DNA of 64,000 nucleotides from an uncultured Halomicronema sp. (GTDB lineage Bacteria; Cyanobacteriota; Cyanobacteriia; Phormidesmidales; Phormidesmidaceae), in the NCBI GenBank assembly GCA_937899725.1, contig CALCCA010000016.1, forward strand, positions 1-64,000, given 5' to 3'. Numbering within the stretch: position 1 is the stretch's first letter; every line of letters begins with the position of its first letter. The position numbers were made by a program, and so were the translations under genes. The notes under the pieces are model-generated. The model saw only the letters and a list, made by a program, of their open reading frames with translations. It did not search any database and was not told the DNA's origin. This document shows positions 825 to 21,066 of this stretch, in pieces.

Positions 825-2762
825 ATGACCGTTGCCCAAGAACCGACGACATCCCCGGCCACCGCTAGCGTTAGTCATCCTTTAGAGCCGCTGACCCCCG
901 AGGAGATCAAAGCCGCAGTCTCTATTGTGAAGACAGAAAAAGCGCTGACGGACAGCTTTCGCTTTGCCACTGTGACGCTCAAAGAGCCAGAAAAGCAGAC
1001 GGTGTTGAGCTTTCGTCTGGGCGACCCGATCGCTCGCGCAGTCTTTATGATTTTGCTGGATAATGCCACCGCGACAACCTACGAGGCGGTGGTTTCCCTT
1101 AATGAGCGGCGCTTGGTTGCTTGGGACGCAATTCCAGGCGTGCAGCCGCCCATTATGTTGGACGAATTTGTGGCCTGTGAGGCGGCGGTTAAGGCTTGTC
1201 CAGAGTTTCAAAGGGCGATCGCTAAGCGGGGCATCACCAATCCTGACCTGGTGATGGTCGATCCTTGGTCAGCCGGTCACTATGGCATCGCCGACGAAGT
1301 GGGTGTGCGACTGTCGCGGGCGCTGTGCTGGGTCAAAGCCAATCCCACCGACAACGGTTATGCCCACCCGATCGAAGGCGTCATCCCCGTGGTCGACCTC
1401 AATAAAATGGAAGTGATTCGCGTTGAAGACTATGGCGTGGTGCCTCTCCCCCCTGAGGATGGCAACTACATCCCTGAGTACGTCAAAAATTACCGGCAGG
1501 ATCTCAAACCGCTGGAGATTGTGCAACCCGACGGTCCCAGCTATGCGGTGGACGGTCACGAAATTAGCTGGCAAAAGTGGAAAGTTCGCGTTGGCTTCAC
1601 CCCTCGCGAAGGTCTCGTACTCTACGACGTGACCTACACCGACAACGGTGAAGATCGCCCCATTTTTTACCGGGCTTCCCTCGCCGAGATGACTGTTCCC
1701 TACGGCGATCCGCAACCCAATCACTATCGCAAAAACGCCTTTGACGTCGGCGAATACGGCATTGGCTCCCTCGCCAACTCGCTCAAATTAGGCTGCGACT
1801 GCCTCGGCGTCATCCACTACTTCGACGCCTTCATCACTGACTCGCGGGGTGAAGTCGCGCAGATCGAGAATGCTGTCTGCCTCCACGAAGAAGACTTTGG
1901 CATTCTCTGGAAGCATATGGACTGGCGCACCGAACAAACCGAAGTGCGTCGCTCTCGTCGCTTGGTGATCTCTTTCATCGCGACCGTTGGTAACTACGAA
2001 TATGGCTTTTACTGGTACTTCTACCAAGACGGCACCATTCAATATGAGGTGAAGCTGACCGGCATGGTGAGCACAGGAGCCGTTATGCCGGGTGAAGTGC
2101 CCAAATACGGCACGCTGGTGGCGCCCCAGCTCAACGCCCCGATTCACCAGCACATCTTTAATGTGCGGCTGGATATGAATATTGACGGAGCGAACAATTC
2201 GGTTTACGAAGTCGATATTGTGCCCGAAGACGACGAGCACAACCCCTATGGCAACGCTTTTTATGCTCAATCAACTCTGTTACCCACCGAGAAAGCCGCT
2301 CAGCGCCTGATCGACCCGATGAAAGGGCGCTATTGGAAAGTGGTGAACCCGGCCAAAACCAACGCGATGGGCTACCCAACTGCTTACAAGCTGATGCCCG
2401 GAGAGAATACCCTACCGCTGGCCCGACCCAGCGCCAGCGTGATTAACCGGGCGACTTATATGACTCAGCATCTATGGGTGACCCCCTACAGCGCCGACGA
2501 AAACTATCCCGCCGGCGACTATCCCAATCAGCATCCCGGTGGTGCGGGACTGCCCCAGTGGACAGCGGCCGATCGCCCAGTAGAAGACACAGATATCGTC
2601 GTTTGGTATACCTTTGCCCACAGTCATTCGCCCCGCGCTGAAGATTGGCCAGTGATGCCAGTCGCCACGATTGGGTTCATGCTCAAGCCGCTGAATTTCT
2701 TTGATGAGAATCCGGCCAACGACGTGCCGCCCTCCGTCAGCAAGCATTCTTGCTGCGGTTAG
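825..2762 (+). CDS. Copper-containing primary amine oxidase
   Basis: A copper/topaquinone amine oxidase of 645 residues, the usual family length. It oxidises primary amines (such as methylamine, tyramine or phenylethylamine) to an aldehyde, ammonia and hydrogen peroxide. The topaquinone signature Asn-Tyr-Glu-Tyr is at residues 390-393, so Tyr391 is the cofactor precursor. The copper ligands are His441 and His443 (motif HQH) and a third His in the C-terminal motif HSPRAEDWPVMP. No signal peptide is visible, so it may be cytoplasmic. The start ATG has a GGAG stretch just upstream. It is transcribed towards the minus-strand catabolic genes that follow. In this context the final amine-to-ammonium step of a methylated-amine pathway is a plausible job (inference). 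The family is very secure; the substrate is unknown. Confidence 0.93.
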   Translation: MTVAQEPTTSPATASVSHPLEPLTPEEIKAAVSIVKTEKALTDSFRFATVTLKEPEKQTVLSFRLGDPIARAVFMILLDNATATTYEAVVSLNERRLVAWDAIPGVQPPIMLDEFVACEAAVKACPEFQRAIAKRGITNPDLVMVDPWSAGHYGIADEVGVRLSRALCWVKANPTDNGYAHPIEGVIPVVDLNKMEVIRVEDYGVVPLPPEDGNYIPEYVKNYRQDLKPLEIVQPDGPSYAVDGHEISWQKWKVRVGFTPREGLVLYDVTYTDNGEDRPIFYRASLAEMTVPYGDPQPNHYRKNAFDVGEYGIGSLANSLKLGCDCLGVIHYFDAFITDSRGEVAQIENAVCLHEEDFGILWKHMDWRTEQTEVRRSRRLVISFIATVGNYEYGFYWYFYQDGTIQYEVKLTGMVSTGAVMPGEVPKYGTLVAPQLNAPIHQHIFNVRLDMNIDGANNSVYEVDIVPEDDEHNPYGNAFYAQSTLLPTEKAAQRLIDPMKGRYWKVVNPAKTNAMGYPTAYKLMPGENTLPLARPSASVINRATYMTQHLWVTPYSADENYPAGDYPNQHPGGAGLPQWTAADRPVEDTDIVVWYTFAHSHSPRAEDWPVMPVATIGFMLKPLNFFDENPANDVPPSVSKHSCCG

Positions 2763-2849
2763 CGGGAGATATCGCGCTGGGTTCAGTCAGCAATCTGCAT
2801 CGGGGTGTGAAGAAGCCTGAGTGATGTCTGTTCTTGTTTTAACGCCAGT

Positions 2850-3025
2850 TCGGGTTAAGCCAAACCCCGTTGCTTTCCCCTCTGGGGAGGGGCTAGTGGG
2901 GTAGGTGGAACACCTCTCAGCGGGAGGATCGACACCCACCCCGCCTTTGGCACCCCTCCCCAGAGGGGATTGTCGCTTCAACCGGCGGGTCAGCGTGCCT
3001 GATGCCCTTATCCCGAACTCAGGTT
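2850..3025 (-). repeat. Hairpin repeat family B, copy 1
   Basis: Intergenic element with two arms, CCCCTCTGGGGAGGGG (around 2877-2892) and CCCCTCCCCAGAGGGG (around 2954-2969), that can fold into a long stem-loop. It runs on into ACCGGCGGG and a TTATCCCGAACTCAGGTT end. An inverted full copy lies at 24471-24625 and a partial copy at 3910-3985. It looks like a MITE-type or REP-like palindrome between the convergent genes on either side. Confidence 0.7.
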
Positions 3026-3045: not shown

Positions 3046-3774
3046 TTAGACGGGCGCGATCGCGGGGCTAGAACAAGGCACTGAACACAGCGCTAACCAA
3101 GTGTGGGCAACCTGTTCGGCAAAGGCCGCAGCGCCCTCAGCATGGGCGGTGATCTGCGCTTGAATTTGGCGATCAAGACGGGGATAGTGGGCATCGATCC
3201 AGTCACTTTTAGCCGCTAGCCAATCGGCAATAATGGCGGGCGTGACCTCTAGATGAAACTGAAAGCCGTAGATGTTGGTGCCAATGCGATAAGCCTGATG
3301 CGGGCAAATATCGTTGGTCATGAGCCAGGTGGCGGGCTCCGGCAGCTTAAAGGTGTCAAAGTGCCACTGCATGATGTGCAAATCTGCTGGGCAAGCCTGC
3401 AACCAGGGTTCTGTTGCCGCCGGCTGCACTACCCGCAGGGGTGAGAACCCCAGCTCCGGCTGACTGTGCGGATAGACGTGAGAGCCGAAGGCGCGGGCAA
3501 CCAGCTGAGCCCCCAAACACACACCCATAATGGGCTTGTGCTCGGCATGAAACTCGTGAATCAGCGCGACCACCCGCTTGAGATGAGGATATCGCTCATC
3601 CTCGTGGGCGTTCATGTGTCCCCCCAAAATAATCAGTCCCGCATAGTCCTCTGGCGGTGGAGCTGGCTGCTGTTCTGGCAGCCAAGTCAACAGCTCCGCC
3701 CCTGCCTTGACCAGGTGCTCTCCTAAAATCCCAACGGGATCTTGACTGCTGTTTTGAATGACGAGGATTTTCAT
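3046..3774 (-). CDS. Class I glutamine amidotransferase-like hydrolase
   Basis: A 242-residue class I glutamine amidotransferase (GATase1) fold protein of the GMP-synthase-like stand-alone group. The nucleophile elbow reads GVCLGAQ with Cys86, and the His-Glu pair of the triad is in FQFHLEV (His174, Glu176), so all catalytic residues are present. It could hydrolyse glutamine or a gamma-glutamyl amide. The latter fits the neighbouring glutamine-synthetase-like ligases, because enterobacterial PuuD, which hydrolyses gamma-glutamyl-GABA, has a related fold (established for PuuD, inferred here). It ends convergently with the amine oxidase and is followed upstream by a second, catalytically altered GATase-like gene. 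Start is ATG at 3774. Confidence 0.82.
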   Translation of the reverse strand: MKILVIQNSSQDPVGILGEHLVKAGAELLTWLPEQQPAPPPEDYAGLIILGGHMNAHEDERYPHLKRVVALIHEFHAEHKPIMGVCLGAQLVARAFGSHVYPHSQPELGFSPLRVVQPAATEPWLQACPADLHIMQWHFDTFKLPEPATWLMTNDICPHQAYRIGTNIYGFQFHLEVTPAIIADWLAAKSDWIDAHYPRLDRQIQAQITAHAEGAAAFAEQVAHTWLALCSVPCSSPAIAPV

Positions 3775-4047: not shown

Positions 4048-4854
4048 CTACAGGCTGCACTGTCCCAAAAAGAAGCGAAACTGCTGTTGGGTTTGCCAAA
4101 CATAATCTGTTGGCAGCCACAAATCTCGCAGGCCGTAGTCAATGTGCTGCGCCGAGACGAGATTGTCCCGACGTTCGGCCCGCATCATGCGCTCCAAGAT
4201 CCAGGGGTCGCGAGAATATTCGGGGTGGCCCGAAAAGGCCAAAATGTGACCGCCGAGCATCCAGCCGAGATATTCCGTCACGCCGCTAGTGCCCAAAGAC
4301 GCCGCTTCCGCCGGGAGTTGAATAATGCCGTCATTGTGGTGAACTTGAATCGCATAGGCGGTGCGGTCAGTGCCGAAATAGCTGCGAGCGGCCTCGCTGA
4401 GCTGAATGGTGACAACCGATAGCTCCGTGCCAGGGGGATTGCGATCAACTTTACCGCCTAATGCCTGGGCCAAAATTTGCGGCGCAAAAGAAAAGCCCGA
4501 CAGCTTGATCTGGCGCTGATGATAGTTGCGCAGCACGGCCTGCAATTGCAGAATCCACTCGTCTTGGTCGTAAGCGCCGCTAGCCGTGCCCGAAATCACG
4601 ATGCCGTCTAAATCAGCCAGCTCGGCATCGCTCGGGTAGTGACCTTTGCGCGGTTCAAACTTGATCAGTTCGACGCTTTTCAGCGTTGTTCCACCCAGGT
4701 CGTCGGGCTCACTCTGGGCACAGACTTCGGCAAACAGCTGCTGGTGCATTGTGTAGAAGCCATCGGCATAGCGCTCCAAAATTTCCGGTGCCCACCAGCG
4801 CAGGTCATCGGTGCCGACATCAAAACTCGCCAGCCGCAGGTTTTTTGCAGTCAT
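4048..4854 (-). CDS. GATase1-like protein lacking the catalytic cysteine
   Basis: A 268-residue class I GATase-like protein. The frame stays open upstream, but the ATG at 4854 (MTAKNLRLAS) is chosen because it avoids a 300-base overlap with the next gene. The fold is clear from IVISGTASGAYD, ILAQALGG and AFSGHPEYSRD. The position of the nucleophile is changed: the elbow reads GFSFAPQ, with Ser122 (codon TCT) where GICFGHQ-type enzymes carry Cys. The His-Glu pair (His210, Glu212) is kept. It may be a non-catalytic subunit, a binder of gamma-glutamyl compounds or a Ser variant. It lies between a normal GATase1 gene and a PhyH gene on the same strand, so it is probably co-transcribed with them. 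Fold secure, role unknown. Confidence 0.78.
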   Translation of the reverse strand: MTAKNLRLASFDVGTDDLRWWAPEILERYADGFYTMHQQLFAEVCAQSEPDDLGGTTLKSVELIKFEPRKGHYPSDAELADLDGIVISGTASGAYDQDEWILQLQAVLRNYHQRQIKLSGFSFAPQILAQALGGKVDRNPPGTELSVVTIQLSEAARSYFGTDRTAYAIQVHHNDGIIQLPAEAASLGTSGVTEYLGWMLGGHILAFSGHPEYSRDPWILERMMRAERRDNLVSAQHIDYGLRDLWLPTDYVWQTQQQFRFFLGQCSL

Positions 4855-4918
4855 AGCATTCGGTTCGGGGTAAAGGATGCAAGGGGGGACGGAGTGCGAT
4901 CGCTTAGCGCTGCGATGG

Positions 4919-5821
4919 TTACGGAACCAGAGCATCGCCACAATAATCGGCCAGAAAGGGGGTACGGTAGCCGTCCTGACTCCACAAGATCGGGAAATAG
5001 CTTTCATCCATTGCCAGCGTTTCGAGGCGACGATAGCGGCTAAAAATGAAGCCTTGGTCGCTGTGGGGCTGAAATTTGGCTTGGGGATGCAGAGTGCTAA
5101 TGGCCAAACTACGCCGGGTTTGATGGGTTGTCTGGTTGCGATCTGAACCATGCCAGAGCTGGCCGTGAAAGCAGATGGCGCTACCGGGAGATAACTCGAT
5201 GGACTGAATCTGGGGAGCATCTACCCTGGCTGCTGTTGCTGCCTGCCAGAGGGGAGCCCGGTAATCTTCGCGCGGCGCATGGAGAAAGCGGATTCTATCG
5301 GCGCTGGGCCAATGGTGGGAGCCAGGTACGATTTGCAGGGTACCGGCGGCTGAGGTGGCATGGCTGAGGGCGATCCAGCAGGTGACGACACTGGCCGGGT
5401 CGAGGCTAGCCACGTAAGTGCTGTTGCGGTGAAAGGACACCGGAGGAGCCGCCGGCGGCTTGAGCCAGCAGGCATCGAAGCCGTAGCGGGCGGCGGGCCA
5501 ACCCATCAGGCTGGCATTGAGGCGGGCGATCGCCGGCGACAGGGTAACGCTAGCCAGGGTGCGATCGCACCGCCACAGTCCGGTCATTTGGCGGGTGGCG
5601 TTGGGCTGACTGAGGCCAGGTCGGCCATACCACTCGTCTGGATAGATGCCGGTTTCAAACTGGGTGTCAAACAGCGGCTCAAACCGCCCCACAATGCGCT
5701 CAATCTGGGCCGCTGACAGCACATTCTCCAGAATTAGGTAGCCCTGCTGCTGAAACTGGTCAACCTGGCTGGGGGTAACGGGCGGATAGTCCTGACGGGC
5801 GGGGGGCGATAGATTCTGCAT
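4919..5821 (-). CDS. PhyH-family Fe(II)/2OG oxygenase, paralog 1 (HxN variant)
   Basis: A 300-residue member of the phytanoyl-CoA dioxygenase (PhyH) family of iron/2-oxoglutarate oxygenases, one of three paralogs in this window. Conserved blocks shared by all three are an N-terminal GYLILE-type stretch, VTCWIAL, GSH(H/R)W, the WHGS motif with the distal ligand His224, a 2OG-binding Arg-Arg (RRSL, about 236-237) and the C-terminal tail FLADYCGDAL. The first iron motif is unusual: His131-Arg-Asn133 (codon AAC) instead of the HxD present in paralogs 2 and 3 (HQD). Loss of the carboxylate may disable or change iron chemistry. The substrate is unknown; oxidation or N-demethylation of an amine or amide is plausible from context only. 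Confidence 0.85.
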   Translation of the reverse strand: MQNLSPPARQDYPPVTPSQVDQFQQQGYLILENVLSAAQIERIVGRFEPLFDTQFETGIYPDEWYGRPGLSQPNATRQMTGLWRCDRTLASVTLSPAIARLNASLMGWPAARYGFDACWLKPPAAPPVSFHRNSTYVASLDPASVVTCWIALSHATSAAGTLQIVPGSHHWPSADRIRFLHAPREDYRAPLWQAATAARVDAPQIQSIELSPGSAICFHGQLWHGSDRNQTTHQTRRSLAISTLHPQAKFQPHSDQGFIFSRYRRLETLAMDESYFPILWSQDGYRTPFLADYCGDALVP

Positions 5822-6048: not shown

Positions 6049-6942
6049 CTAGTCCACCAGGGCATCGCCGCAATAGTCGGCCAAAAACGGCGTGCGGTAG
6101 CCGTCTTCGCGCCACACAATGGGGAAGAAACTTTCATCCATGGTGTTGTCTCCCTGGCGTTTGTATTTACCCGCGATATAGCCACCGGGCACGTAGGTGT
6201 CAAAGTCTCTAAAGCGCGCCTCGGCGGGGATATAGGACAGCACCAGACTGCGACGAATAACGTTCATCGTATTCGCCCCCGAACCATGCCAAGCATTGCC
6301 GTGGTGAAACACACAGCCCCCTGGCGGAATGTCGAGCTGGACGACTTCTGGGCGATCAACCCCCGCCCGCTGCGCCGCCTGCTCCATATCAGCCAGGTAG
6401 CTTTTGTCCTGGTTGTGAAACGCGGGGACGGCGGCGGACATCTGCCAACGGTGCGACCCGCGCGCATACTCAATGGTGCTAGCCCCGGCCATCGCGTGGC
6501 TGAGGGCAATCCAGCAGGTGACGGTGCCCGGCGGGGTGTGGTAATTGATATACATCGAGTCTTGATGCAGGGTCGTTTCTTTGGCCCCCGGCGGCTTGAG
6601 CCACATCCCATCAGCCAGAAACCGCGCCCCCGACCAACCTTCTAGCATGGCGGCAATGCGACCAATTTTGGCGGACAGGAGGACTGCGGCCAGGGTGCGA
6701 TCGCACCGCCACACCCCGGTCATTTGCCCCGCTGCGCCTGGCTTACCCAAATAGGGATTCCAGTGCCATTCTTCGGGGTAAACCCCGGTTTCAAACTGGC
6801 CCGCAAACAGCGGCTCAAATCGCTCGACTAGGGGCGCGACGAGAGCCGGGGCAATCAGATCTTGAACCACCAGAAAGCCATCTCGATGGAACTGGGAAAT
6901 CTGCTCTGCAGTGATCGGGGCTTTGACTTGAGTTTGCGTCAC
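6049..6942 (-). CDS. PhyH-family Fe(II)/2OG oxygenase, paralog 2
   Basis: A 297-residue PhyH-type dioxygenase with the full facial triad: HQD (His126, Asp128) and distal His219 in WHGSG, plus Arg-Arg at about 230-231 for 2-oxoglutarate. It shares with paralogs 1 and 3 the QFHRDGFL(V/I) start and the tail MDESFFPI...FLADYCGDAL. The start is GTG at 6942, three bases after the stop of the upstream glutamine-synthetase-like gene. A GGAGG about 10-11 bases before it lies close to the end of that gene, so the two are probably translationally coupled. This tight link suggests that the oxygenase acts on the product or substrate of the ligase (inference). The exact substrate is unknown. Confidence 0.88.
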   Translation of the reverse strand: MTQTQVKAPITAEQISQFHRDGFLVVQDLIAPALVAPLVERFEPLFAGQFETGVYPEEWHWNPYLGKPGAAGQMTGVWRCDRTLAAVLLSAKIGRIAAMLEGWSGARFLADGMWLKPPGAKETTLHQDSMYINYHTPPGTVTCWIALSHAMAGASTIEYARGSHRWQMSAAVPAFHNQDKSYLADMEQAAQRAGVDRPEVVQLDIPPGGCVFHHGNAWHGSGANTMNVIRRSLVLSYIPAEARFRDFDTYVPGGYIAGKYKRQGDNTMDESFFPIVWREDGYRTPFLADYCGDALVD

Positions 6943-6945: not shown

Positions 6946-8283
6946 TTAATAAACCTCCAGGTATTCGGTCTTTTCCCAATCGGTAATGTGATCGTGAAAC
7001 CGGGCCAGCTCAAACTGTTTCACCGTGGTGAACAGCTGACAAAACTCTGGGCCGAGCATCTCTTGCATGGCGCTGTCGGCCGCGAGCGCCGCTAGGGCGG
7101 CATCCAACGTTTTAGGGAAGGGGGGCAGGCTCGGATCTTCTTCGCTGGGGCCGTCTACCATCGGCTGTAGCTCCCGCTGCTCTTTGATGCCGAGCAGTCC
7201 GGCGGCGAGGGTGGCGGCGGCCGTTAGATAGGGATTGCTGAGGCCCGAACCCGCGCGCATTTCCAAATGGGTATCTTCATCCCCGGTGGCCTTGACCCGC
7301 ACCATCGCCGTGCGATCTTCGATGCCCCAACTGATGTTAGAAGGCGCAAACGTGTGGGGTTTGAGCCGTCGATAGCAGTTGGGCGTCGGCCCAATCAGCG
7401 GCATCATCGCCGGAGCATGAGCCAAAATCCCTTGAATAAACGATCGCGCCGTGGCCGACAGGCCGTGGGGGGCATCCTCGTCTAAAAACAGGTTGGTGTC
7501 CCCGTCCCACAGACTCAGGTGAAAGTGGCAGCAGCAACCGGCCATCCCCGCAAACGGCTTCGACATAAAGCTGGCCTGATAGCCCAAGTGATGAGCGATT
7601 TCCTTCACCGCATTTTTGAAGGTAAAGGCTTTGTCGGCCCCCTGAATGCCAATGCTGGGGCCATAGTTGATTTCAAACTGGGAAGGCGCGTACTCGCAGT
7701 TGTGGGTAATCACGTCAATGCCCGCCGCCTGCAGATAGTCCAGCATTTGGCTGATTTCTGGCACGTACTGATTGCGAATATGGTTGAAAATGTGGAGCCC
7801 GTCAAACAAAGGCTGTTGCGTCTCGGCATTGAGCAGGTAAAACTCAAACTCGTGGCCCATCATCACGTCGAAGCCGAGCTGTTTAGCGCGATCGAGCAGT
7901 GACTTCAACACGTAGCGGGGCGCTCCCAACAGCGGTTCTTCCGGCCCCCAATAGGCATCACAAACGACCTTCGCGGTGTGATCCATCCAGGGGACGGGGG
8001 TGCAACTGCTGAGGTCAGGAAAGAGCAGATGGTCGCGATAGCGCCGCTCTTCGTGATAACCGGACGTGGTGACGACTGATGAGGCCGTGTCTAAAGCCAG
8101 GGTGCCGCCGTAGAAGTTAAGACCTTTGCGGGCGTAGCCTTCGACTTTGCCGATGGGAATCACCTTTAAGCGGGAGACGCCATGCAGGTCGGGCAGCTCG
8201 AAGCGCACATATTTGACGCCCTGCTCAGTTAAGGATTCGACCCAGCTGGCGATGGTTTCCGGCGCGGCGGTGGTGACGACCAT
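6946..8283 (-). CDS. Glutamine synthetase-like gamma-glutamyl ligase (PuuA/GmaS-like)
   Basis: A 445-residue glutamine-synthetase-fold ligase. ATP-grasp-like glutamate/metal motifs are seen in order: GHEFEFYLL, CEYAPSQFEINYG, HFHLSLWDGD, NCYRRLKP, EDRTAMVRVK and HLEMRAGSGLSNPY. The start ATG at 8283 is supported by AGGAG ten bases upstream; the longer frame would overlap the region of the next gene. It lacks the N-terminal features of the GlnA used for ammonium assimilation and resembles amine-specific members (gamma-glutamylpolyamine or gamma-glutamylmethylamide synthetases). These couple glutamate to an amine with ATP. In this cluster, methylamine or another small amine is the likely substrate (inference). 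The gene is coupled to the PhyH gene downstream. Confidence 0.85.
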   Translation of the reverse strand: MVVTTAAPETIASWVESLTEQGVKYVRFELPDLHGVSRLKVIPIGKVEGYARKGLNFYGGTLALDTASSVVTTSGYHEERRYRDHLLFPDLSSCTPVPWMDHTAKVVCDAYWGPEEPLLGAPRYVLKSLLDRAKQLGFDVMMGHEFEFYLLNAETQQPLFDGLHIFNHIRNQYVPEISQMLDYLQAAGIDVITHNCEYAPSQFEINYGPSIGIQGADKAFTFKNAVKEIAHHLGYQASFMSKPFAGMAGCCCHFHLSLWDGDTNLFLDEDAPHGLSATARSFIQGILAHAPAMMPLIGPTPNCYRRLKPHTFAPSNISWGIEDRTAMVRVKATGDEDTHLEMRAGSGLSNPYLTAAATLAAGLLGIKEQRELQPMVDGPSEEDPSLPPFPKTLDAALAALAADSAMQEMLGPEFCQLFTTVKQFELARFHDHITDWEKTEYLEVY

Positions 8284-8342
8284 TAACGGTTGCTCCTGAT
8301 GAACATGCCCTAATCTCTCTAAAGACTTGGGCCAATGCTGTA

Positions 8343-11023: not shown

Positions 11024-11370
11024 AGGAAACCTCTATCAAAATATTGGGCATTGGCAGCGCCAGGAAAGCAGACCTTGGTACGTTCTGAATGGCGCTGTCT
11101 TGTGGTTAGTAAATCGGGCCTAACCGCAGGACTCTGTAGCCGCAGATACCCCACCGCTGAATCGTCGTCGATTTAGTCATGAAACGTTAGTTTGAGAGCC
11201 CCCGGTACGGGATCTTTGAGGCCGCCAAATGCAGGACGTCTTGCCTTAAGCCATGGTCGCGTTGTTGCGGGCCGTCGACATTCAGCCGCCATTAGGTGCC
11301 GTTTGCTGATCAATGCTCGAACTCTCGAGGCCATCTTGAAAACGCCGGGGGCCTCAGCGTCCCGCCCCCA
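11024..11370. repeat. Intergenic region with repeat family F, copy 1
   Basis: About 350 bases with no gene. At roughly 11305-11365 it holds a degenerate copy of repeat family F: a CAATGCTCGAACTCTCGA block, then GGCCATCTTGAAAACGCC and a GC-rich stretch. Compare 13756-13854 and 18770-18858. Confidence 0.5.
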
Positions 11371-12156: not shown

Positions 12157-12238
12157 GGGAGAGAACTCCAGGGCAAAAGGGATATGGGCAAACTGCCTAG
12201 CGTCTTGGCTCACTGACTAACACAGGGCTCCAGGCTTC

Positions 12239-13594
12239 TTAAGCCTGGATGGGCTGCTTGTCTAAAAAACCGGCCATAGAGTCATCCATCGCCTCCAGCC
12301 AAGGGGTGTGATGAATGGGCGCTTTTGTGCCCGTGCAGGGGGAGACAAACGACTTGTCGCGATAGCCGAGAATGCTGTGTTCTTTGTCGTGCTCCCATGC
12401 TTTGAACAAATCCGTTGTCATCTCCCAGTCGCAGGGGGCATAGTCCACCAGCTGGGCTAAATCGACAATGTAGTCTTTTTGGAAATCGATCTGCTCAAAG
12501 GCATCCTGCAGGGCGGCTTCCCGCTGCTGCCACAGGGCCATGTCGTGGGCGATCGCGGTCTCATTGGGCAGCTCAATGCGTCCCAGCACGACGTCGCGAG
12601 CGTACCAGGCTTGCACGTCAAACATGCTGAAGGTGTAGAACTGATCCTGCATGCCCAAATACATCAGCTTGGGATTGGTTTCCCAGAAGATGCCTTTGTA
12701 GAGCGCGCCGGGATAAAGACGATTCTGAGCCTTGAGCCGCAAACTATCCGCTAAGAACGGGAAGTGATGCTGATAGCCGACGCAGAATACGATCGCATCG
12801 ACTAACTGCTGGCTGCCGTCTTTGAAGTGGGCGGTGGGGCCGTCGAGATGGGTCAGCAGGGGCACCTCTTTGATGCCCTCGGGCCAGTCGAAGCCCATGG
12901 GGGCCGTGCGATAGCTAATCGTCACCGATTTAGCCCCGTACTTATAGGTTTGCAGAGCGATGTCTTCTGCCGAATAGCTGCTGCCGACCACCAACAAATC
13001 TTTGCCGGCAAACTCTCGGGCGTCGCGGAAGTCATGGCTGTGCAATAGCCGTCCGGGGAACTGCTCAATGCCCGCAAACACCGGCAATTTGGGCACAGAG
13101 AAATGTCCTGTACAGACAATGACGTAATCAAATTCCTCGGTGTATTCGCGATCGCCCTGCAGGTCTTTTACCCGCACTGTGAACGTATCGCTAGCCTCTA
13201 CGTAATCCACATAGCGCACCACCGTGCTGAAACGAATATAGCGCTCCAGATTGCCCTTTTTTGCCCGTCCCACAATGTAGTCGTAGAGCACCTCGCGCGG
13301 CGGAAAGGAGGGAATCGGCTGGCCGAAATGTTCGTCAAAGCTGTAGTCAGCAAACTCCAGGCATTCTTTCGGCCCATTCGACCAGAGATAACGATACATG
13401 CTGCCGTGAACAGGCTCACCGTGTTCATCCAGGCCGGTGCGCCAGGTGTAGTTCCACAGTCCCCCCCAGTCGGCTTGCTTTTCAAAACACACCAGCTCTG
13501 GGATATCGGCCCCGGTCAATCGCGCCTGGGCAAATGCGTGAAGCTGTGACAGGCCACAGGGACCCGCACCAATAACGGCAATGCGAGAGGGCAT
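12239..13594 (-). CDS. tmm: Trimethylamine monooxygenase-like flavin monooxygenase
   Basis: A 451-residue class B flavin monooxygenase that closely follows bacterial trimethylamine monooxygenase (Tmm), which uses FAD, NADPH and O2 to turn trimethylamine into TMAO. The FAD motif GAGPCG is at 9-14. Tmm-typical stretches are WGGLWNYTWRTGLDE, SMYRYLWSNGPKECLEFADY, the NADPH motif VGSSYSAED, YRTAPMGF, YLGMQDQFYTFSMFD and HHTPWLEAMDDS. The FMO signature F-x-G-x3-HSHDF is present. The length fits Tmm (about 450). The start ATG at 13594 has AAGG six bases upstream. Tmm is known mainly from Roseobacter, SAR11 and Methylocella, so it is unusual here. Related activities on other tertiary amines or dimethylsulfide are possible. 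Confidence 0.85.
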   Translation of the reverse strand: MPSRIAVIGAGPCGLSQLHAFAQARLTGADIPELVCFEKQADWGGLWNYTWRTGLDEHGEPVHGSMYRYLWSNGPKECLEFADYSFDEHFGQPIPSFPPREVLYDYIVGRAKKGNLERYIRFSTVVRYVDYVEASDTFTVRVKDLQGDREYTEEFDYVIVCTGHFSVPKLPVFAGIEQFPGRLLHSHDFRDAREFAGKDLLVVGSSYSAEDIALQTYKYGAKSVTISYRTAPMGFDWPEGIKEVPLLTHLDGPTAHFKDGSQQLVDAIVFCVGYQHHFPFLADSLRLKAQNRLYPGALYKGIFWETNPKLMYLGMQDQFYTFSMFDVQAWYARDVVLGRIELPNETAIAHDMALWQQREAALQDAFEQIDFQKDYIVDLAQLVDYAPCDWEMTTDLFKAWEHDKEHSILGYRDKSFVSPCTGTKAPIHHTPWLEAMDDSMAGFLDKQPIQA

Positions 13595-13755
13595 GGGCAA
13601 CCTTGTCTAAACTCTAAATGTTGTAGACCTTATACCCCTTTTTGGCCGGGTCTTTTGCTAATCGGTATACCGAGCACTGGAAGCGAGTGCATTCTCAAAC
13701 GCTGACAGAGCAGTGTCGGGCCATATGACGGCGGGTCAGGTGATCGAGATGAGGT

Positions 13756-14320: not shown

Positions 14321-14845
14321 TTAAGCCTCGCGATCAAAAGCCGCCTGAACCGACTCGATATCGACGCGGGCAGTTTGGATCAAAAGCCGGGGGTGTTCTG
14401 GCCAAAGCTGGTGCCAAGCCAGGATCGCCGTGCCGTCAATTCGGGCAGGTACGGCGCGGTGGAGCGGCAAGGGTGACAACCGAAAGCGCGGTTTGGTGAC
14501 GGCAACCTGGGCCAATCGTTCCAGTCCAGCCGCGGCGGGCAGTACCAGATTCGCCGTCTGACAGGGCTTGACCCACACGTTTGACGGCAAAGGCGTGAGC
14601 GCCGCCCGGAAATCCACATTTTCCGGCAGGGCCACGCGAAAGTTGTTTTCGCAGAGGCGGAGCACCGTGGCGGGAGCTGAGTTGAGGGAAACTGCGCAGG
14701 ACTGAAACGGCGCTAAGTGGGAAACGGCGGCAGAAAAAAGGGCGATCGCCGTCTGCAATCCATCCACACCGGCAAAGTCCCACAGGCGACAGTCCAGTTC
14801 ATCCATCGGCGATGAAGCGATCGAGACCGGGGCCGCAGCAGCCAT
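14321..14845 (-). CDS. Hypothetical protein coupled to the Tdm-like gene
   Basis: A 174-residue protein with no family I recognise. It starts three bases after the stop codon of the DUF1989-GcvT gene, so the two are almost certainly co-translated and may form a complex. It has no signal peptide and no membrane helix. The sequence alternates beta-like stretches (CAVSLNSAPATVLRLCENN, RVDIESVQAAF). In size it is near the gamma subunit of heterotetrameric sarcosine oxidase, which accompanies a GcvT-like domain, but I see no decisive motif, so this is only a suggestion. Confidence 0.65.
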   Translation of the reverse strand: MAAAAPVSIASSPMDELDCRLWDFAGVDGLQTAIALFSAAVSHLAPFQSCAVSLNSAPATVLRLCENNFRVALPENVDFRAALTPLPSNVWVKPCQTANLVLPAAAGLERLAQVAVTKPRFRLSPLPLHRAVPARIDGTAILAWHQLWPEHPRLLIQTARVDIESVQAAFDREA

Positions 14846-14848: not shown

Positions 14849-16714
14849 TTAAGCCCTCGCTCGACTTTTGGTGGGGTCATAGAGTGATAGTGGCCCGACT
14901 TCAGCCGGAATCCGGCGCTTCAACCCGTCCAGCAGGCCGACTGCGAGCACCGTGCCCGGTGCCGCATACTCGGGGGCCACCTGGGCCAGGGCAATGCTGC
15001 GGTTGAGCACCGGCGAAAAGGTGCCGCTGGTGACATGACCGACGCGCCAGCGTTCCTCGACCGGATACACACACTGCCCGCCACCGGTCACTTCGTTCCC
15101 TTCTAGCAGCAGCCCCACCGCGACAAAAGGCGGGCGATCGCGCAGTTTTTCTAACGCGGCTCGGCCGATGAAGTCTGCCTTGCTTTTCAGCGCCACGCTC
15201 CAGCCAATGCCCGCCTGATAGGGCGAAATCAAGTCGCTGAACTCGCGGCCAGCGGCGAGCAGTCCGGCTTCAATGCGGGCACGATCGAGGGCCTGCATCC
15301 CCAAGGGCAGCAAGTCATAGGCTGTCCCTGCCTGCATCAACGCATCCCATAGTGCCGCCCCCTGCTCAGGATGCACGAACAGTTCATAGCCCAGTTCGCC
15401 GGTGTAGCCCGTGCGAGAAATCAGGATGGGGATGTCATTAAGCTGGCCGGTCACAAAGCGAAAATAGGTCAGCTCATTGAGATCGGTCACATCCCACCCA
15501 GCGTCAATCGCCACGAGCGATCGCAACAGCTCGCGCGACGCTGGCCCCTGCAACGCTAGGTTGTGCCAGCGGTGACTGCTGGGCTCTACCGTCGCCGCCC
15601 ACCCCTGGCGCTGCGCCACCTCTTGCAGCCAGAGCCCATCGGTGTCGCAGTTGCCGACATAGCGATAGCGGGTGGCTCCGAGCCGAAACACAATGCCATC
15701 ATCAATCATGCCGCCGTGGGGGTTGAGCAGACAGCCATAGGCCGATTGGCCCACGTCCAGCTTGGCAAGATTGCGGGAAAAGGTCCATTGCAGCAGTGCT
15801 AAAGCCGCTGGCCCGCTCACCTCAAACTTGCGCAGGGCCGAGAGATCCATCAGGGCCACGCGCTGCCGTAAGGCCCAATATTCCGCCTGGTCGCCCTGGT
15901 GTGGATAGCTCAGGGGTACCCAAAACCCGCTATATTCCGCCAGGTTTTGAGTCAGAGACCGAATGCGGGGCGTAAAGGCGCTGTCTTGTGTCAGCCGCAG
16001 GGGCAGTGCGCGCGCGACGCGACGCCCGATCGTGGGCCGCAAGTCGGCCTCGGCCCCATAGATCCGCACATGAATTGCGGTCGGTCGCCAGCCGTTCGCC
16101 GCGTCAATATCATCGGGACAGGCCGAACTGGCACAGAGTAAGTCAGTCTGGGCTTGCAGCACCACATAGTCACCCGGACGCGACCAAGATTCGGCTGAGG
16201 TGATTTCCCCCGTGGCTGCCGCCGCCGTATTGAAGAAAAAGTTCACGGCAGGCCAGCCCGCTCGCGGCGCGATGCCATAGTCAGCCAGCACCTGGTTAAA
16301 GTTCTCACTACAGCTGGGATGGCCGGGATAGCCCGCATCTTCATAATATTGAGCGGTGCAGGCCAGCATAAAGCTGTCGTGGCGAGCACAGGTATCTTGC
16401 ACCACGGTCACAAGGGGACGCATGGCCTGGGAGAAATAGTGGCTGTGTAAGCCGCCAGGCTGGGGCATCGCCTGACCCAGTAGCGTCCGCGTCACGGTGC
16501 TGTCAAGCGCTTCTTGATGGCGATCGCCCGCAAAGGCCAAAAAGTCAGAGCACTGACTGCCTTCAATATCGATGATTTGAATGTACTGTCCCGCCTTGAC
16601 CCGGTAAGCGATCGCCGTGGCAGCGGCGATCCGATACTCGGCCATCACGTGACCTAAGGGCGACGGCACGTCGCGGTGGGGGGCGAGGGGGGGTGAACCG
16701 GGGTGAACCTGCAT
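14849..16714 (-). CDS. tdm: DUF1989-GcvT fusion, TMAO demethylase (Tdm)-like
   Basis: A 621-residue two-domain protein. Residues about 20-220 are a DUF1989 (urea-carboxylase-associated) domain with Cys-rich motifs (GHPSCSENFN, LLCASSACPDD) that can bind a metal. Residues about 245-615 are a GcvT/aminomethyltransferase domain that binds tetrahydrofolate (VALMDLSALRKFEVSG, ISRTGYTGELGYELFV, VTSGTFSPVLNRSIALAQV). TMAO demethylase has this domain order: the metal domain splits TMAO into dimethylamine and formaldehyde, and the GcvT domain captures formaldehyde on tetrahydrofolate. This protein is shorter than the Methylocella enzyme. It is one gene apart from tmm, which supports the assignment. 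An alternative is a demethylase for another N-methyl compound. Confidence 0.75.
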   Translation of the reverse strand: MQVHPGSPPLAPHRDVPSPLGHVMAEYRIAAATAIAYRVKAGQYIQIIDIEGSQCSDFLAFAGDRHQEALDSTVTRTLLGQAMPQPGGLHSHYFSQAMRPLVTVVQDTCARHDSFMLACTAQYYEDAGYPGHPSCSENFNQVLADYGIAPRAGWPAVNFFFNTAAAATGEITSAESWSRPGDYVVLQAQTDLLCASSACPDDIDAANGWRPTAIHVRIYGAEADLRPTIGRRVARALPLRLTQDSAFTPRIRSLTQNLAEYSGFWVPLSYPHQGDQAEYWALRQRVALMDLSALRKFEVSGPAALALLQWTFSRNLAKLDVGQSAYGCLLNPHGGMIDDGIVFRLGATRYRYVGNCDTDGLWLQEVAQRQGWAATVEPSSHRWHNLALQGPASRELLRSLVAIDAGWDVTDLNELTYFRFVTGQLNDIPILISRTGYTGELGYELFVHPEQGAALWDALMQAGTAYDLLPLGMQALDRARIEAGLLAAGREFSDLISPYQAGIGWSVALKSKADFIGRAALEKLRDRPPFVAVGLLLEGNEVTGGGQCVYPVEERWRVGHVTSGTFSPVLNRSIALAQVAPEYAAPGTVLAVGLLDGLKRRIPAEVGPLSLYDPTKSRARA

Positions 16715-16766: not shown

Positions 16767-17477
16767 TTACGTAAAGGGAAAGGGCTGCCAGGGAATCCAT
16801 TGGTGCCAGAATTTGGCGAGGGTGCCATCCGCTGCGAGCTGATCGAGGGTCTGATTGAGCGCAGTCAGGAGCCCGGTGCTGTCAGGATGCAGGGCGATCG
16901 CAAATCGATGGCGACTGGCCACCGTGAAGGCAAGCCGCAGGCTCGGATCAGCCGCCGCTGCTGTAATTAGCACCAATTCATCATCCACCAGCGCGTCAAT
17001 TTCCCCGGCCCTGAGCGCCGCCAGCATCTCGGGCAACACGCGATCGCTGCCAGGAAACGGCACTAACTCAACGTCACCCCACTGTTCGCCCAGCTCAATG
17101 TTAGTGCTGTCCGCGAGGCCGCCGAGCTTGAGTCCTGACAAATCGGCGGCGGTGTGAATCGAGCTATCGGCCCTGACAATCACCGCTTCATTAAAAATTC
17201 CATAGGGGCGAGTGAAGCGGCTGTGGGTGAGGCGCTCATCGGTAATCGCCTGGTTAAACCAAACGATGTCACATTGCTGAGCCTGCAACTTGGCATAAAA
17301 CTGCTCCATTGGCAGGTTGAGCCACACGGGCGTGAGTTCCAGCTGGGCGCAAACGGCCCGCGCCACATCCGGTTCGTAGCCCAAGCGCTGACCGCTCTCA
17401 ACATAGGTCATTGGCCGCGCATCAAAATCGCTGGCCCCAATCGTCAGCTGGCCAGGCTGGAGAGTAGAAAAATCCAT
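16767..17477 (-). CDS. Family 3 solute-binding-like protein without signal peptide
   Basis: A 236-residue domain like the periplasmic binding proteins of amino-acid ABC transporters (SBP_bac_3): TIGASDFDARPMTYVE, GYEPDVARAVCAQL, QQCDIVWFNQAITDER, ADLSGLKLGG, and ALRAGEIDALVDDE. Unlike transporter subunits, it begins directly with the mature domain; no signal peptide or lipobox precedes ATG 17477, and no permease or ATPase genes are nearby. It is therefore probably cytoplasmic, perhaps sensing or buffering an amine or amino acid for the pathway, or it could be a small enzyme of the cyclohexadienyl-dehydratase kind. It lies 52 bases upstream of the Tdm-like gene, on the same strand. Confidence 0.78.
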   Translation of the reverse strand: MDFSTLQPGQLTIGASDFDARPMTYVESGQRLGYEPDVARAVCAQLELTPVWLNLPMEQFYAKLQAQQCDIVWFNQAITDERLTHSRFTRPYGIFNEAVIVRADSSIHTAADLSGLKLGGLADSTNIELGEQWGDVELVPFPGSDRVLPEMLAALRAGEIDALVDDELVLITAAAADPSLRLAFTVASRHRFAIALHPDSTGLLTALNQTLDQLAADGTLAKFWHQWIPWQPFPFT

Positions 17478-17687
17478 GCAGTTGAGTCAATTTAACGAAT
17501 AGCTTATTGTCAAGACTCAGGAGCCTACCCGTCGTAGCTCAGAGCACAAAGCGCCCCCGCGCGTCGAACGCTGACGGGGCTGAGGCGCATCGCTGTAACG
17601 GCCAGTACAAACCCTGAGACGGATCGGCGGCACTATAAAACAGTCCCGGTCTTAAGAATTTAAAGGGTTAAGGTGTTGAGTTCTCCC

Positions 17688-18584
17688 ATGTCCTACCAGC
17701 CGCTGCAGCTGAATGATCGTCAGATCCGGCAGTTTCATGCCGATGGCTTTTTGATTTTAGAGACCTTCCTCGGTATGGATTGGGTGCAGCGCCTGCGCGA
17801 TCGCATTGAGCCGTTGTTTCACGGCGACTTCGAGACGGGCATCTATCCCGATGAATGGTACTGGCGACCCGGCCTGAGCCTGCCCGACGTGACCCGCGAA
17901 ATTTGCAATGCTTGGAAATGCGATCGCACCATTGCCAGCGTGGCCCTCTCCTCAGAAGTCGGGCGTCTCAGCGCCCAGTTAGCGGGCTGGCCCGGCGCCC
18001 GCATTGGGCAAGACAGCTTGTGGTATAAGCCGCCGGGCGGCGGCAAAGAAATTGCCCTGCACCAGGATGGGGCCTACATTGACTACCTCACCCCGGCAGA
18101 AATGGTGACCTGCTGGATCGCCCTGGATGACGTCAACTTAGACATTGGCACCCTGCAATATGCTCGCGGTTCCCACCGCTGGCCCTTAGTGTCTGCCCTC
18201 ACCGGGGAATTTCACGCGCCGCAAAAAGATTATCGCTGGGCCATGTTAGAAACCGCCAAAGCCGCCGGTGTGTCTGACCCAGAGATTGTCCCTGTCACCA
18301 TCCCGGCTGGCGGGTGTGCCTTTCACCACGGGCTCACCTGGCACGGCTCGGGCAAAAATCTTAGTGCCACCCGGCCGCGCCGCAGCCTCGGCATTCATAC
18401 CGTCAGTTCGGCCACCCAGTTCAGCGAGCACCCGGCAGGCTACATTTACGGGCGCTACAAACACGTTGGCGATGACAAGATGGACGAATCTTTCTTTCCC
18501 ATTCTCTGGACTGAAACGGGCGATCGCTCAGCCCATTTAGCCAATTATTGCGGCGATGCCCTCGCTCCCCTGGTGACCGCCTAG
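17688..18584 (+). CDS. PhyH-family Fe(II)/2OG oxygenase, paralog 3
   Basis: A 298-residue PhyH dioxygenase related to those at 4919-5821 and 6049-6942. Iron ligands are intact: HQD (His125, Asp127) and His219 in WHGSG; Arg-Arg at about 231-232 binds 2-oxoglutarate. It keeps the shared start (FHADGFLILE), VTCWIAL and the tail MDESFFPILW...LANYCGDAL. It is the only gene of the catabolic island between 3.0 and 21.1 kb on the plus strand and diverges from the SBP-like gene at 17477. The ATG at 17688 is chosen. A GTG at 17673 behind AAAGGG is an alternative that adds five residues. Substrate unknown. Confidence 0.87.
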   Translation: MSYQPLQLNDRQIRQFHADGFLILETFLGMDWVQRLRDRIEPLFHGDFETGIYPDEWYWRPGLSLPDVTREICNAWKCDRTIASVALSSEVGRLSAQLAGWPGARIGQDSLWYKPPGGGKEIALHQDGAYIDYLTPAEMVTCWIALDDVNLDIGTLQYARGSHRWPLVSALTGEFHAPQKDYRWAMLETAKAAGVSDPEIVPVTIPAGGCAFHHGLTWHGSGKNLSATRPRRSLGIHTVSSATQFSEHPAGYIYGRYKHVGDDKMDESFFPILWTETGDRSAHLANYCGDALAPLVTA

Positions 18585-19641: not shown

Positions 19642-19653
19642 AGGGGTGTCTCC

Positions 19654-21066
19654 TCAAATAACGTCAGTTGTCGTTGTGGTCGAACTGCCCGGCCCAGCAT
19701 GGATGGGATCTAATAGGCCATCCTCATTGAGCAGGGGATATTCCGGATATCCTCTGAGGCCAAAATCACCCAGGTCGAGCCCTTCGATTTCTTCCTCGGG
19801 GGGGACGCGCAGCAGGTTGAGCTTTTTCAGCACCCAACTACAGCCATAGCCAGGAATCAGCCCCAGCACGATGGTGCAGAGGAACGTGCCCACCAGCTGA
19901 GCGATAAAATTGGTTGGCGGGTAGTCCCCAATGGCATAGCCAGTGCCCATGACGCCCACCGCCATCGAGCCAATGACACCACAGTAGCCGTGGACAGCAA
20001 ATGCACCCACGGCATCATCAATGCCTTTCTGCTCAACAAACTTACCGACGAAGGGCATCGTATAAGCGCCAATAAAGGCAATCAGCAGCACCAAGGGCGG
20101 CGCATACAGGTCAAGCCCAGCCCCGACTGAGATAATGCCGGCCAGCCCGCCGGAAATGGTGTAAAAGGGGTCACCCTTAGAGCCCAAATAAGAGCCGATA
20201 ATCCCAATGCAAAGTGCCAAGGTGGTGTTGACCCCAATGGAGGCCAGCGTCATCGGCGTGCCATAGATCGTCGTTTCTACGGTGGCTCCGGGGAGGAAAA
20301 TAACACAGCCTGCCAGGAAGGCATAAAACCCCACGAAGATGAGCATCAGCCCCACCATGGTCAGCGGCAAGTTGTGCGGCCGAATGTCGCGGGCTACGCC
20401 CCGAGAATCAAACTTGCCAATGCGCGGCCCGAGATTGATCAGGACGCCGAGCGCAAAGAAACCGGAGACGCCGTGAACGACCGCCGAGCAACCAAAATCG
20501 TGGTAGCCCATGGTGTTGAACCAACCCCAATAGTTCCAGCCCCAGGAAGCCGCAACCACCCAAAGGAAGCCCCCCAAAATGGCGGCCAAAATTAGGTAAG
20601 CGCCGAGCTTGATGCGCTCAATGACCGCTCCCGACATAATTGAGGCCGTGGTCATGGCAAATAGAGAGAACGCAAACCAAAAAACGCCCGTCAGGTTGTC
20701 GGCAATGTTCGGCCCCATCGCCGGCGACCAAGGATAGGTGGTCGCCACAAAACCCAGCAATCCTTCCCCATCGAGGGTGCCAAGGTTTTCGGGCAGGGCC
20801 GTGCTCCAGGGACCCAAAATCGGCCCAAAGCGCGGAAAGATGGAAAAGGCCGCGTAGACCCACCAACCAAAGAAGTAAAACGACAGTCCGACGACTGAGA
20901 GGGTCAGCAGGTTTTTGACCATCGTTGCCAACACGTTTTTAGCCCGAGAGGCGCCGCCCTCATAGGCCAAAAAGCCAACGTGAATTAGCAACATAAACAC
21001 AGCGGCCCAATAGTAATAGACCTCTGAGACGAAGACTCCTAAAAATGCTTGTGCATCAGGCTCCAT
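19654..21066 (-). CDS. amt: Amt-family ammonium/methylammonium transporter
   Basis: A 470-residue, strongly hydrophobic Amt/MEP/Rh-family channel. The twin pore histidines are at about His198 (SAVVHGVSG) and His359 (FAVHGYCGVIG), and the conserved Asp is in YHDFGCS. It differs from AmtB-like proteins (DFGCSAVVH instead of DFAGG-x-VVH), so it may be a subgroup with other selectivity such as methylammonium. The start ATG at 21066 has AGGAG six bases upstream (a TTG two codons earlier is an alternative). A perfect NtcA-type palindrome lies about 100 bases upstream, consistent with induction under nitrogen limitation. The C-terminus is long, ending in Ser/Thr runs. It is the promoter-proximal gene of a two-gene operon. 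Confidence 0.9.
   Translation of the reverse strand: MEPDAQAFLGVFVSEVYYYWAAVFMLLIHVGFLAYEGGASRAKNVLATMVKNLLTLSVVGLSFYFFGWWVYAAFSIFPRFGPILGPWSTALPENLGTLDGEGLLGFVATTYPWSPAMGPNIADNLTGVFWFAFSLFAMTTASIMSGAVIERIKLGAYLILAAILGGFLWVVAASWGWNYWGWFNTMGYHDFGCSAVVHGVSGFFALGVLINLGPRIGKFDSRGVARDIRPHNLPLTMVGLMLIFVGFYAFLAGCVIFLPGATVETTIYGTPMTLASIGVNTTLALCIGIIGSYLGSKGDPFYTISGGLAGIISVGAGLDLYAPPLVLLIAFIGAYTMPFVGKFVEQKGIDDAVGAFAVHGYCGVIGSMAVGVMGTGYAIGDYPPTNFIAQLVGTFLCTIVLGLIPGYGCSWVLKKLNLLRVPPEEEIEGLDLGDFGLRGYPEYPLLNEDGLLDPIHAGPGSSTTTTTDVI

Follow-up and report, generated by a model that had tools for sequence, protein, structure and literature searches.

The window analysed here comprises 64,000 nucleotides (positions 1 to 64,000, forward strand) of contig CALCCA010000016.1 from an uncultured Halomicronema sp. 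of the Cyanobacteriota, and it begins with a run of amine-related genes that we call the amine island. The reading that we favour, at a probability of roughly 0.55, is that the island serves nitrogen scavenging from methylated amines along a four-step route, and that it was acquired horizontally as a block that is rare in cyanobacteria. In the first step, which is well supported by homology, the monooxygenase Tmm would oxidise trimethylamine, the fish-smell compound, to trimethylamine N-oxide (TMAO). In the second, also supported by homology, a two-domain form of the demethylase Tdm would split TMAO into dimethylamine and formaldehyde, with its GcvT domain handling the one-carbon (C1) unit. 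The glutamine-synthetase-like ligase GSb is then predicted to couple dimethylamine and/or methylamine to the gamma-carboxyl of glutamate, and the oxygenase PhyH3 would hydroxylate an N-methyl group of the gamma-glutamyl amide, giving formaldehyde and the demethylated amide, with glutamine as the end product. Through these last two steps one ligase-oxygenase pair would replace Dmm and Mgs/Mgd. A solute-binding-like protein (SBP) may bind the amide as a carrier or sensor, the transporter Amt would keep ammonium inside the cell, and a copper amine oxidase may offer a side route from methylamine to ammonium.

The new element is the GSb-PhyH-SBP module, and a Tdm without its N-terminal domain is of further interest. 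That GSb, PhyH and a cytosolic binding protein together do the work of Dmm, Mgs and Mgd, with GSb as a portable ligase that takes varied partners, is put forward tentatively, at somewhat less than even odds. The genes that carry the argument are as follows.

12239..13600, minus strand: Tmm, trimethylamine monooxygenase (the FMO), assigned by NCBIfam and tree
14849..16714, minus strand: Tdm-like protein, a two-domain (DUF1989 + GcvT) TMAO demethylase variant that lacks the N-terminal DUF1989-like domain
14321..14845, minus strand: orf14.3, a 174-aa orphan kept in all three Tdm-bearing cyanobacterial genomes
9521..11023, minus strand: GSb, (gamma-glutamyl) ligase resembling glutamine synthetase, from a clade of its own; predicted substrates methylamine and/or dimethylamine
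17673..18584, plus strand: PhyH3, oxygenase of the Fe(II)/2-oxoglutarate type that has HxD...H and R; proposed gamma-glutamyl amide N-demethylase
16767..17477, minus strand: SBP, solute-binding-like protein of family 3 that travels with GSb and apparently lacks a signal peptide
19654..21072, minus strand: Amt ammonium transporter, linked to the block in genome G121

Tmm and the Tdm-like protein

Open reading frames (ORFs) were listed for the first 23 kb of the window. The Pfam comparison covered 18 proteins of the first 25.5 kb and 10 encoded further on, some of which were also run against NCBIfam. Distribution was followed in 386 cyanobacterial genomes, a sample of the phylum that includes the window's own genome (G000). 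A sequence-only reading of the window had described a copper amine oxidase, two glutamine synthetase (GS)-like ligases, an FMO, a DUF1989-GcvT fusion and Amt in one 20-kb run, and all of these were found where it had placed them.

The FMO scored 787.7 bits with the trimethylamine monooxygenase model NF058570, above the curated cut-off of 675. Its relatives were taken from the best 80 of 595 genome loci, ranked by similarity and not a census, among which the closest named one is that of the cyanobacterium Kaiparowitsia implicata (81%). The remaining 79 (Pseudonocardia, Burkholderiales, Pseudomonas and others) are 60-65% identical to the window protein, and a Tdm-type protein is also present at 32 of these 79 non-cyanobacterial loci. 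The earlier statement that Tmm and Tdm are known mainly from marine proteobacteria is too narrow, as the best 80 of the 595 loci hold many Mesorhizobium, Rhizobium and Pseudomonas and three Actinomycetota; Tmm genes have already been published in Arthrobacter and Mycobacterium (PMC5023230). Among the 386 cyanobacterial genomes four have a Tmm over the cut-off (G000, G011, G121 and G320), and FMO matches including weaker ones occur in 75.

A maximum-likelihood tree was built from 41 hand-picked rows including G011; an earlier tree was without G011 and had four Mesorhizobium rows at most. The window FMO is nested inside the Tmm tree, not beside it. Together with Kaiparowitsia and G011 it forms a clade with support of 100/99, which G121 joins at 92/85, and this cyanobacterial clade of four stands beside two actinobacterial Tmm (87/89) within an enclosing set of 15 rows (100/99). 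The G320 copy sits among marine alphaproteobacteria in the same 41-row tree, in which a single cyanobacterial origin of all five Tmm was rejected (p-AU 3e-9). The G320 copy was acquired separately, so Tmm entered cyanobacteria at least twice. G320 is also the only one of the four genomes above the cut-off without Tdm, GSb or PhyH3 matches, and its Tmm locus (L007) lies near what reads as PsbC. The identification of the window FMO as Tmm is thus well supported by homology.

The second enzyme is a 621-aa fusion of DUF1989 and GcvT (plus GCV_T_C) domains according to Pfam. Its best NCBIfam model is NF053776, TMAO demethylase (828.8 bits, model positions 153-763 matched), and because this score falls under the model's cut-off we label the protein a Tdm-like variant. 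Its alignment with 9q59, a solved structure of TMAO demethylase, spans residues 6-620 (E 1e-182). The Zn/Fe ligands proposed for M. silvestris Tdm, C263, H276, C279, C343 and D346 (and the D198 region; PMC12560246), are matched in the window by C119, H132, C135, C199 and D202 (and D57), identical in all three cyanobacterial Tdm; the correspondence uses our own numbering offset and is least certain for D198/D57. An extra N-terminus of at least 114 aa was found in 32 of 32 non-cyanobacterial Tdm from tmm loci, counting the longest ORFs. The cyanobacterial proteins differ from the others at several otherwise near-invariant positions, mainly in the GcvT half. A match to NF053776 that includes the DUF1989 part occurs in three of the 386 genomes (G000, G011 and G121), none above the cut-off, and three further genomes match with the GcvT part alone.

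The fusion protein falls among the Tdm of tmm loci, not among unrelated DUF1989-GcvT enzymes, and homology supports its reading as a Tdm relative and putative TMAO demethylase variant. With the FMO inside the Tmm tree and the fusion among Tdm proteins, the outcomes visible in sequence that the earlier reading had named against itself did not occur. In the literature on trimethylamine and cyanobacteria, passages of PMC11537045, PMC12206446 and PMC5023230 held nothing on a cyanobacterial Tdm, most subscription journals being outside the search. A natural Tdm that lacks the N-terminal domain offers a test of that domain's purpose.

Directly downstream of Tdm in G000, G011 and G121 alike lies orf14.3. 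The idea that it is a split-off Tdm N-terminal domain led nowhere, hhalign giving a probability below 1% against both that domain and DUF1989. It had no match in Pfam or in plasmids, and its single-sequence AlphaFold2 model (pLDDT 38.5) was unusable.

The GSb ligase, PhyH3 and the binding protein

The block whose presence in other cyanobacteria the sequence-only reading had left to a search was found there. The core set of Tmm, Tdm, orf14.3, GSb, PhyH3 and SBP recurs in two other families (matches over 80 bits; loci L001-L003, L005 and L008-L033 left out). The order in G011 is PhyH3, SBP, Tdm, orf14.3, Tmm, GSb, and in G121 it is Amt, PhyH3, SBP, GSb, Tmm, Tdm, orf14.3, followed by fatty-acid-desaturase-like, alpha/beta-hydrolase-like and type III GS-like genes. 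Because the block recurs in both genomes, the clustering is not due to chance. PhyH3 relatives at E 1e-30 or better are found in five of 386 genomes (three copies in G000, then G005, G011, G121 and two weaker ones in G300), GSb at E 1e-60 or better in four (G000, G005, G011 and G121), and Tmm, Tdm, GSb and PhyH3 occur all together in G000, G011 and G121. G005 carries PhyH-SBP-GSb with a type III GS and a C26-type hydrolase and has no Tmm or Tdm at the thresholds used, and in Kaiparowitsia GSb stands beside Tmm with PhyH on another contig. From these two arrangements, the ligase-oxygenase-SBP set is separable from Tmm-Tdm. Near the amine island of G121 (L036 1890-7751) and on contig C175 of the window's genome (L179 5928-12671) we also observed an agmatinase-family-like gene with ABC-transporter-like and Hyp-like accessory genes, runs that, from our reading, presumably resemble guanidine-hydrolase clusters.

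The two GS-type ligases of the earlier description are not standard GmaS. Both fall under the NCBIfam cut-off of 469.6 for TIGR03105 (GSb 315.3, GSa 273.6), and GSb, which is about 30% identical to GS2, a GmaS-like GS of the same genome, belongs to a clade of its own (15 rows, support 100/100) apart from type III GS/GmaS. The tree was built without L035, L004, L180, L188, L122 and L186, the last being the sole row of the second GS of G005; a Gordonia fusion was trimmed to its first 500 residues, and long-branch warnings apply to GSa and the GlnA row. GSa had no close relative among the loci examined, a comparison of loci only and not of whole genomes.

The partners of GSb elsewhere, among the matches listed, vary. 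Homologues of MgsA, MgsB and MgsC lie directly downstream of GSb in four of four non-cyanobacterial tmm/tdm loci with GSb (L090, L093, L112 and L174), which come from three marine alphaproteobacteria and one Pseudonocardia metagenome-assembled genome (L041 and L174 are one contig). It is this position directly upstream of mgsABC homologues that ties GSb to methylamines. In five of six other GSb-clade loci (Mycobacterium, Gordonia, Streptomyces clavuligerus, Paracoccus and Ruegeria) a P450 adjoins GSb or lies near it, at a distance of two genes in Paracoccus and one in Ruegeria; these P450 proteins form one family, at 53-68% identity to that of Mycobacterium. The Rhodococcus locus has no P450 in the stretch, with ferredoxin and reductase genes present. 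An SBP relative (38-42%) follows GSb in Mycobacterium and Rhodococcus. P450-GS clusters have been linked to cyclic secondary-amine degradation, in part from PMC9477822. The simplest common reading, we infer, would be that GSb makes a gamma-glutamyl amide that is processed by different partners: Mgs, a P450 or, in cyanobacteria, PhyH.

PhyH3 belongs to PF05721 and keeps the HxD...H motif and the 2-oxoglutarate-binding Arg (H130, D132, H219 and R237). Its annotated plasmid relatives are matches of 25-31% at most (25 of 37 records listed). The window SBP has an N-terminus that is not hydrophobic and an in-frame stop codon upstream, and is probably cytosolic. A literature search joining phytanoyl-CoA dioxygenase with methylamine and glutamine synthetase found none, with most subscription journals outside its reach.

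The sequence-only reading had noted that no Dmm genes are present, and for the one marker tested this stands: PF11927 (HODM/DmmA alpha-like) gave no match in G000, nor in G121, G320 or G386 (the Kaiparowitsia genome), other Dmm subunits being outside the whole-genome search. PF11927 is present in G011, far from the island. A close MgsA was not found in G000 either, where only weak class-II amidotransferase matches (25-34%) occur, MgsB, MgsC and Mgd being outside the whole-genome search; the MgsA search gave class-II amidotransferase matches of 25-38% in five cyanobacterial genomes and of 40% and more in two others. If the proposal is true, it provides an assayable candidate for the missing dimethylamine and methylamine steps in organisms without Dmm and Mgs markers.

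Regulatory boxes and neighbouring genes

Perfect NtcA-type boxes (GTAN8TAC) lie upstream of several island genes.

11136..11149, minus strand: perfect NtcA-type box upstream of GSb
17595..17608, plus strand: perfect NtcA-type box in the promoter region between the divergent SBP and PhyH3 genes
21167..21180, minus strand: NtcA-type box upstream of Amt, with a second at 21375-21388

The window holds seven perfect boxes where 3.2 are expected, a number reached in 7 of 100 shuffles. Four of 12 upstream stretches contain a box, at three distinct sites (GSb, the shared SBP/PhyH3 region and Amt), and the upstream sequence of the island, 2,572 bp in all, holds three of the seven boxes (binomial p 0.002, promoter composition ignored). 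In G121 six of seven promoters tested have an NtcA box, at four distinct sites, the exception being the C26 hydrolase, in a stretch that is box-dense generally (10 in 19.5 kb, 1.8 expected).

A composite of the NtcA box and a palindrome, GTAN8TAC-N4-TTGTNATAACAA, matches at three places when the entire G121 genome is searched with up to two mismatches tolerated, each time exactly; the matches precede Amt, GSb and Tdm, and the reversed control gave 0. As the element precedes Amt as well as GSb and Tdm, it points to nitrogen. G005 has seven matches at up to two mismatches (control 2): the best two precede GSb and the type III GS, one two-mismatch site precedes a copper amine oxidase 70% identical to that of the window, and four lie elsewhere. 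The Kaiparowitsia match is placed where a GntR regulator ORF and a desaturase-like gene diverge, either in between or at a start; the G121 island region holds a GntR gene 53% alike. We conclude that NtcA probably controls the block in response to nitrogen, joined in some relatives by a GntR-type repressor. As a general island feature the palindrome was rejected, being absent from the first 25 kb of the window, and the composite is not in the window.

Other genes in and beside the island are the following.

825..2762, plus strand: copper amine oxidase (AGAO-like), possible methylamine oxidase; PF01179, NF008559 at 984.6 bits (cut-off 651), NYEY cofactor motif; not island-specific
3046..3774, minus strand: GAT1, class-I glutamine-amidotransferase-like, possible gamma-glutamyl amide hydrolase; nucleophile Cys present (GVCLG)
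4048..5220, minus strand: GAT2 ORF, amidotransferase-like at residues ~144-338; no Pfam match, Cys nucleophile apparently replaced (GFSFAPQ); the real start is probably inside the ORF
4919..5821, minus strand: PhyH1, PhyH oxygenase paralogue with HxN instead of HxD
6049..6942, minus strand: PhyH2, PhyH oxygenase paralogue with HxD...H present
6946..8382, minus strand: GSa, divergent glutamine-synthetase-like ligase (Pfam/NCBIfam and tree)
8343..9155, minus strand: DUF6885 protein (Pfam)
11371..12213, minus strand: MOSC-domain protein (Pfam)
21818..23008, plus strand: iron-containing alcohol dehydrogenase, possible island extension
23014..24411, plus strand: aldehyde dehydrogenase, possible island extension

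The three PhyH, the SBP, the two class-I amidotransferase-like, the MOSC and the DUF6885 genes had gone unmentioned in the sequence-only reading, as had the two dehydrogenases just beyond its stretch. In Kaiparowitsia (L177 7548-11480) a type III GS-like gene is followed by iron alcohol dehydrogenase and aldehyde dehydrogenase genes, a run that by our reading resembles window positions 21818-24411. The active sites of the neighbours GAT2 (no nucleophile Cys) and PhyH1 (HxN) are degenerate, and one G300 PhyH paralogue has the same Asn.

The copper amine oxidase, counted earlier as part of the amine block, was rejected as a core member. It occurs in 40 of the 386 genomes, in eight of them at 57% or more, and the same-family genome G215 holds a 94% identical copy with no Tmm and no GSb at the search thresholds. 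In G011 it lies far from the island, and G121 gave no match. Its nearest solved structures are Arthrobacter-type amine/phenylethylamine oxidases. The enzyme may help in amine use and does not define the island.

A nif cluster shares the contig, with nifH at 55541-56413 and a nifK-like gene at 58136-59704; from gene order, nifD would lie at 56545-57990. The nearest nif-type gene identified, homocitrate-synthase-like (45844-46983), is more than 20 kb from the island, the ORFs at 38-45 kb being outside the annotation. The link between amine use and diazotrophy suggested earlier amounts to co-residence on a contig. The window also encodes a probable NifEN fusion, 997 aa long and with two nitrogenase-component-1 stretches (60521-63514), and a STAND NTPase with pentapeptide repeats (34711-37002). 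The findings extend the Tmm-Tdm pathway to cyanobacteria on a nif-bearing contig, so that a phototroph could draw on organic nitrogen instead of fixing nitrogen at high cost.

Competing explanations and known systems

The outcome for the sequence-only reading was mixed, in that its first two enzymes have sequence evidence and the rest of its interpretation is incomplete; its nearly complete route to ammonium depends on steps that we infer. What the sequences show is who the genes are by homology, their conservation, their clustering and, in G121 and to some extent in G005, regulatory elements in common; all enzyme activities are predictions, the demethylation of gamma-glutamyl amides by PhyH most of all. 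Several observations weigh against our own proposal. The Tdm-like protein misses the curated NF053776 cut-off of 1100 bits, with the first ~150 model positions uncovered, and the N-terminal DUF1989-like domain, called ubiquitous among Tdm homologues in PMC12560246, is absent in three of three cyanobacterial Tdm. The nearest solved relatives of PhyH3 are mostly natural-product oxygenases and distant (best E 1e-17), and an AlphaFold2 model of PhyH3 with the two window paralogues was unusable (pLDDT 33.7). On regulation, no TAN3T -10 element occurs within 34 bases after the window boxes, and no perfect NtcA box was found in the four G011 promoters tested or for Kaiparowitsia Tmm, GSb and PhyH. 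The composite has 1, 1, 1 and 2 matches in G000, G011, G386 and G320 (controls 2, 0, 0 and 3), none in an island. No palindrome within three mismatches was found in the window's first 25 kb, and the G011 region has one three-mismatch match (0.6 expected). In G005 (L151 277-1161) a PF11927 haem-dependent N-demethylase-like protein is encoded 1.1 kb from GSb; the dimethylamine step there may therefore be haem-dependent, with PhyH serving something else, which also counts against one scheme for all these genomes.

The strongest alternative, which we consider unlikely though deserving of attention, retains Tmm and Tdm as proposed and makes the later steps conventional: methylamine would be handled by the copper amine oxidase and by a GmaS-like GS encoded on contig C96, dimethylamine by an unrecognised enzyme, and GSb-PhyH-SBP would serve some other amine co-induced under nitrogen starvation. 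The C96 protein, GS2, matches 7cql, named a type III glutamate-ammonia ligase and which we take to be GmaS, at E 7e-174. With a GS on C96 far closer to a solved type III GS, GSb may be unneeded for methylamine, a further point against the proposal. Close GS2 copies (68-74%) occur in G121 and G011, the copper amine oxidase adjoins the island, G005 keeps GSb-PhyH-SBP without Tmm or Tdm matches, and the P450-GSb pairs of other bacteria suggest other amines. Against this, GSb lies directly upstream of mgsABC in the tmm/tdm loci of marine alphaproteobacteria and Pseudonocardia, PhyH3 and GSb are present in all three cyanobacteria with Tmm and Tdm, and in G011 the Tmm block and the copper amine oxidase lie far apart, with G121 not among the 40 matching genomes. 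A run of an FA_desaturase-like membrane protein, an alpha/beta hydrolase and a GmaS-like GS is seen both on C96 (L176 1856-5439, in G000) and in G121 (L037 3355-6877); because it follows Tdm-orf14.3 in G121, the desaturase-like protein is another candidate oxygenase.

Considerably less probable is that the FMO acts as a broad N/S-oxygenase, for instance in dimethylsulfide or trimethylamine detoxification, that the fusion takes another C1 substrate, and that the cluster makes or breaks a specialised metabolite through its three PhyH and amidotransferases. Tmm does also oxidise dimethylsulfide. The sub-cut-off score of the two-domain protein and the degenerate sites of PhyH1 and GAT2 would fit this, as would G300 (L149 9506-11345), where tandem PhyH relatives (45-46%) stand beside a P450-like and a 2138-aa protein, the latter read as a biosynthetic megaenzyme, a locus that also tells against our proposal. 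However, the FMO and the fusion lie close together and match the Tmm/Tdm pairs of 32 non-cyanobacterial loci, the metal ligands of the fusion are kept, and in G121 the composite element is found at Amt just as it is at GSb and Tdm. That the island is genomic cargo, decaying or silent and with no function today, is very improbable: PhyH1 lacks the HxD Asp and GAT2 the nucleophile Cys, but Tmm, Tdm, GSb, SBP, PhyH3 and Amt are open, of full length relative to cyanobacterial relatives and 57-88% conserved across several families, with regulatory boxes in place.

Methylated-amine scavenging, the favoured reading, has its closest known counterpart in the aerobic trimethylamine pathway of Ruegeria pomeroyi, which consists of Tmm, Tdm, Dmm, GmaS, Mgs and Mgd (PMC13390433). 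Shared features are the clustering of Tmm and Tdm, the course from trimethylamine over TMAO to dimethylamine, a GS-type ligase in the cluster and use as a nitrogen source. The window differs in that its genome is without PF11927 and without a close MgsA (Mgd was not searched), its Tdm is without the N-terminal domain, a PhyH oxygenase and an SBP are present, and it has NtcA-type boxes in place of the published regulators TmaR/TmoR, for which no search was made here. Like GmaS, GSb has the GS fold and the conserved GS motifs and likely gamma-glutamylates an amine; unlike it, GSb shows the separate clade (100/100), the ~30% identity to GmaS-like GS2 and the TIGR03105 score under the cut-off given above. 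P450-GS clusters of the piperidine/morpholine type, including that of Gordonia pGKT2, which we partly take to serve the degradation of cyclic secondary amines, likewise place a GSb-clade ligase beside an oxygenase, with a cytosolic SBP adjoining in Mycobacterium, yet their oxygenase is a P450 and that of the window a PhyH 2-oxoglutarate enzyme. With SnoK and MysH, PhyH-family Fe(II)/2-oxoglutarate oxygenases, PhyH3 shares PF05721, HxD...H and R, although the similarity is distant only (best E 1e-17). Finally, for Tery_3826, an FMO of Trichodesmium, a role in organic-nitrogen scavenging has been proposed that refers to the oxidation of trimethylamine (PMC12206446); it is likewise an FMO of a cyanobacterial diazotroph, but a single FMO is described there, whereas the window has a block.

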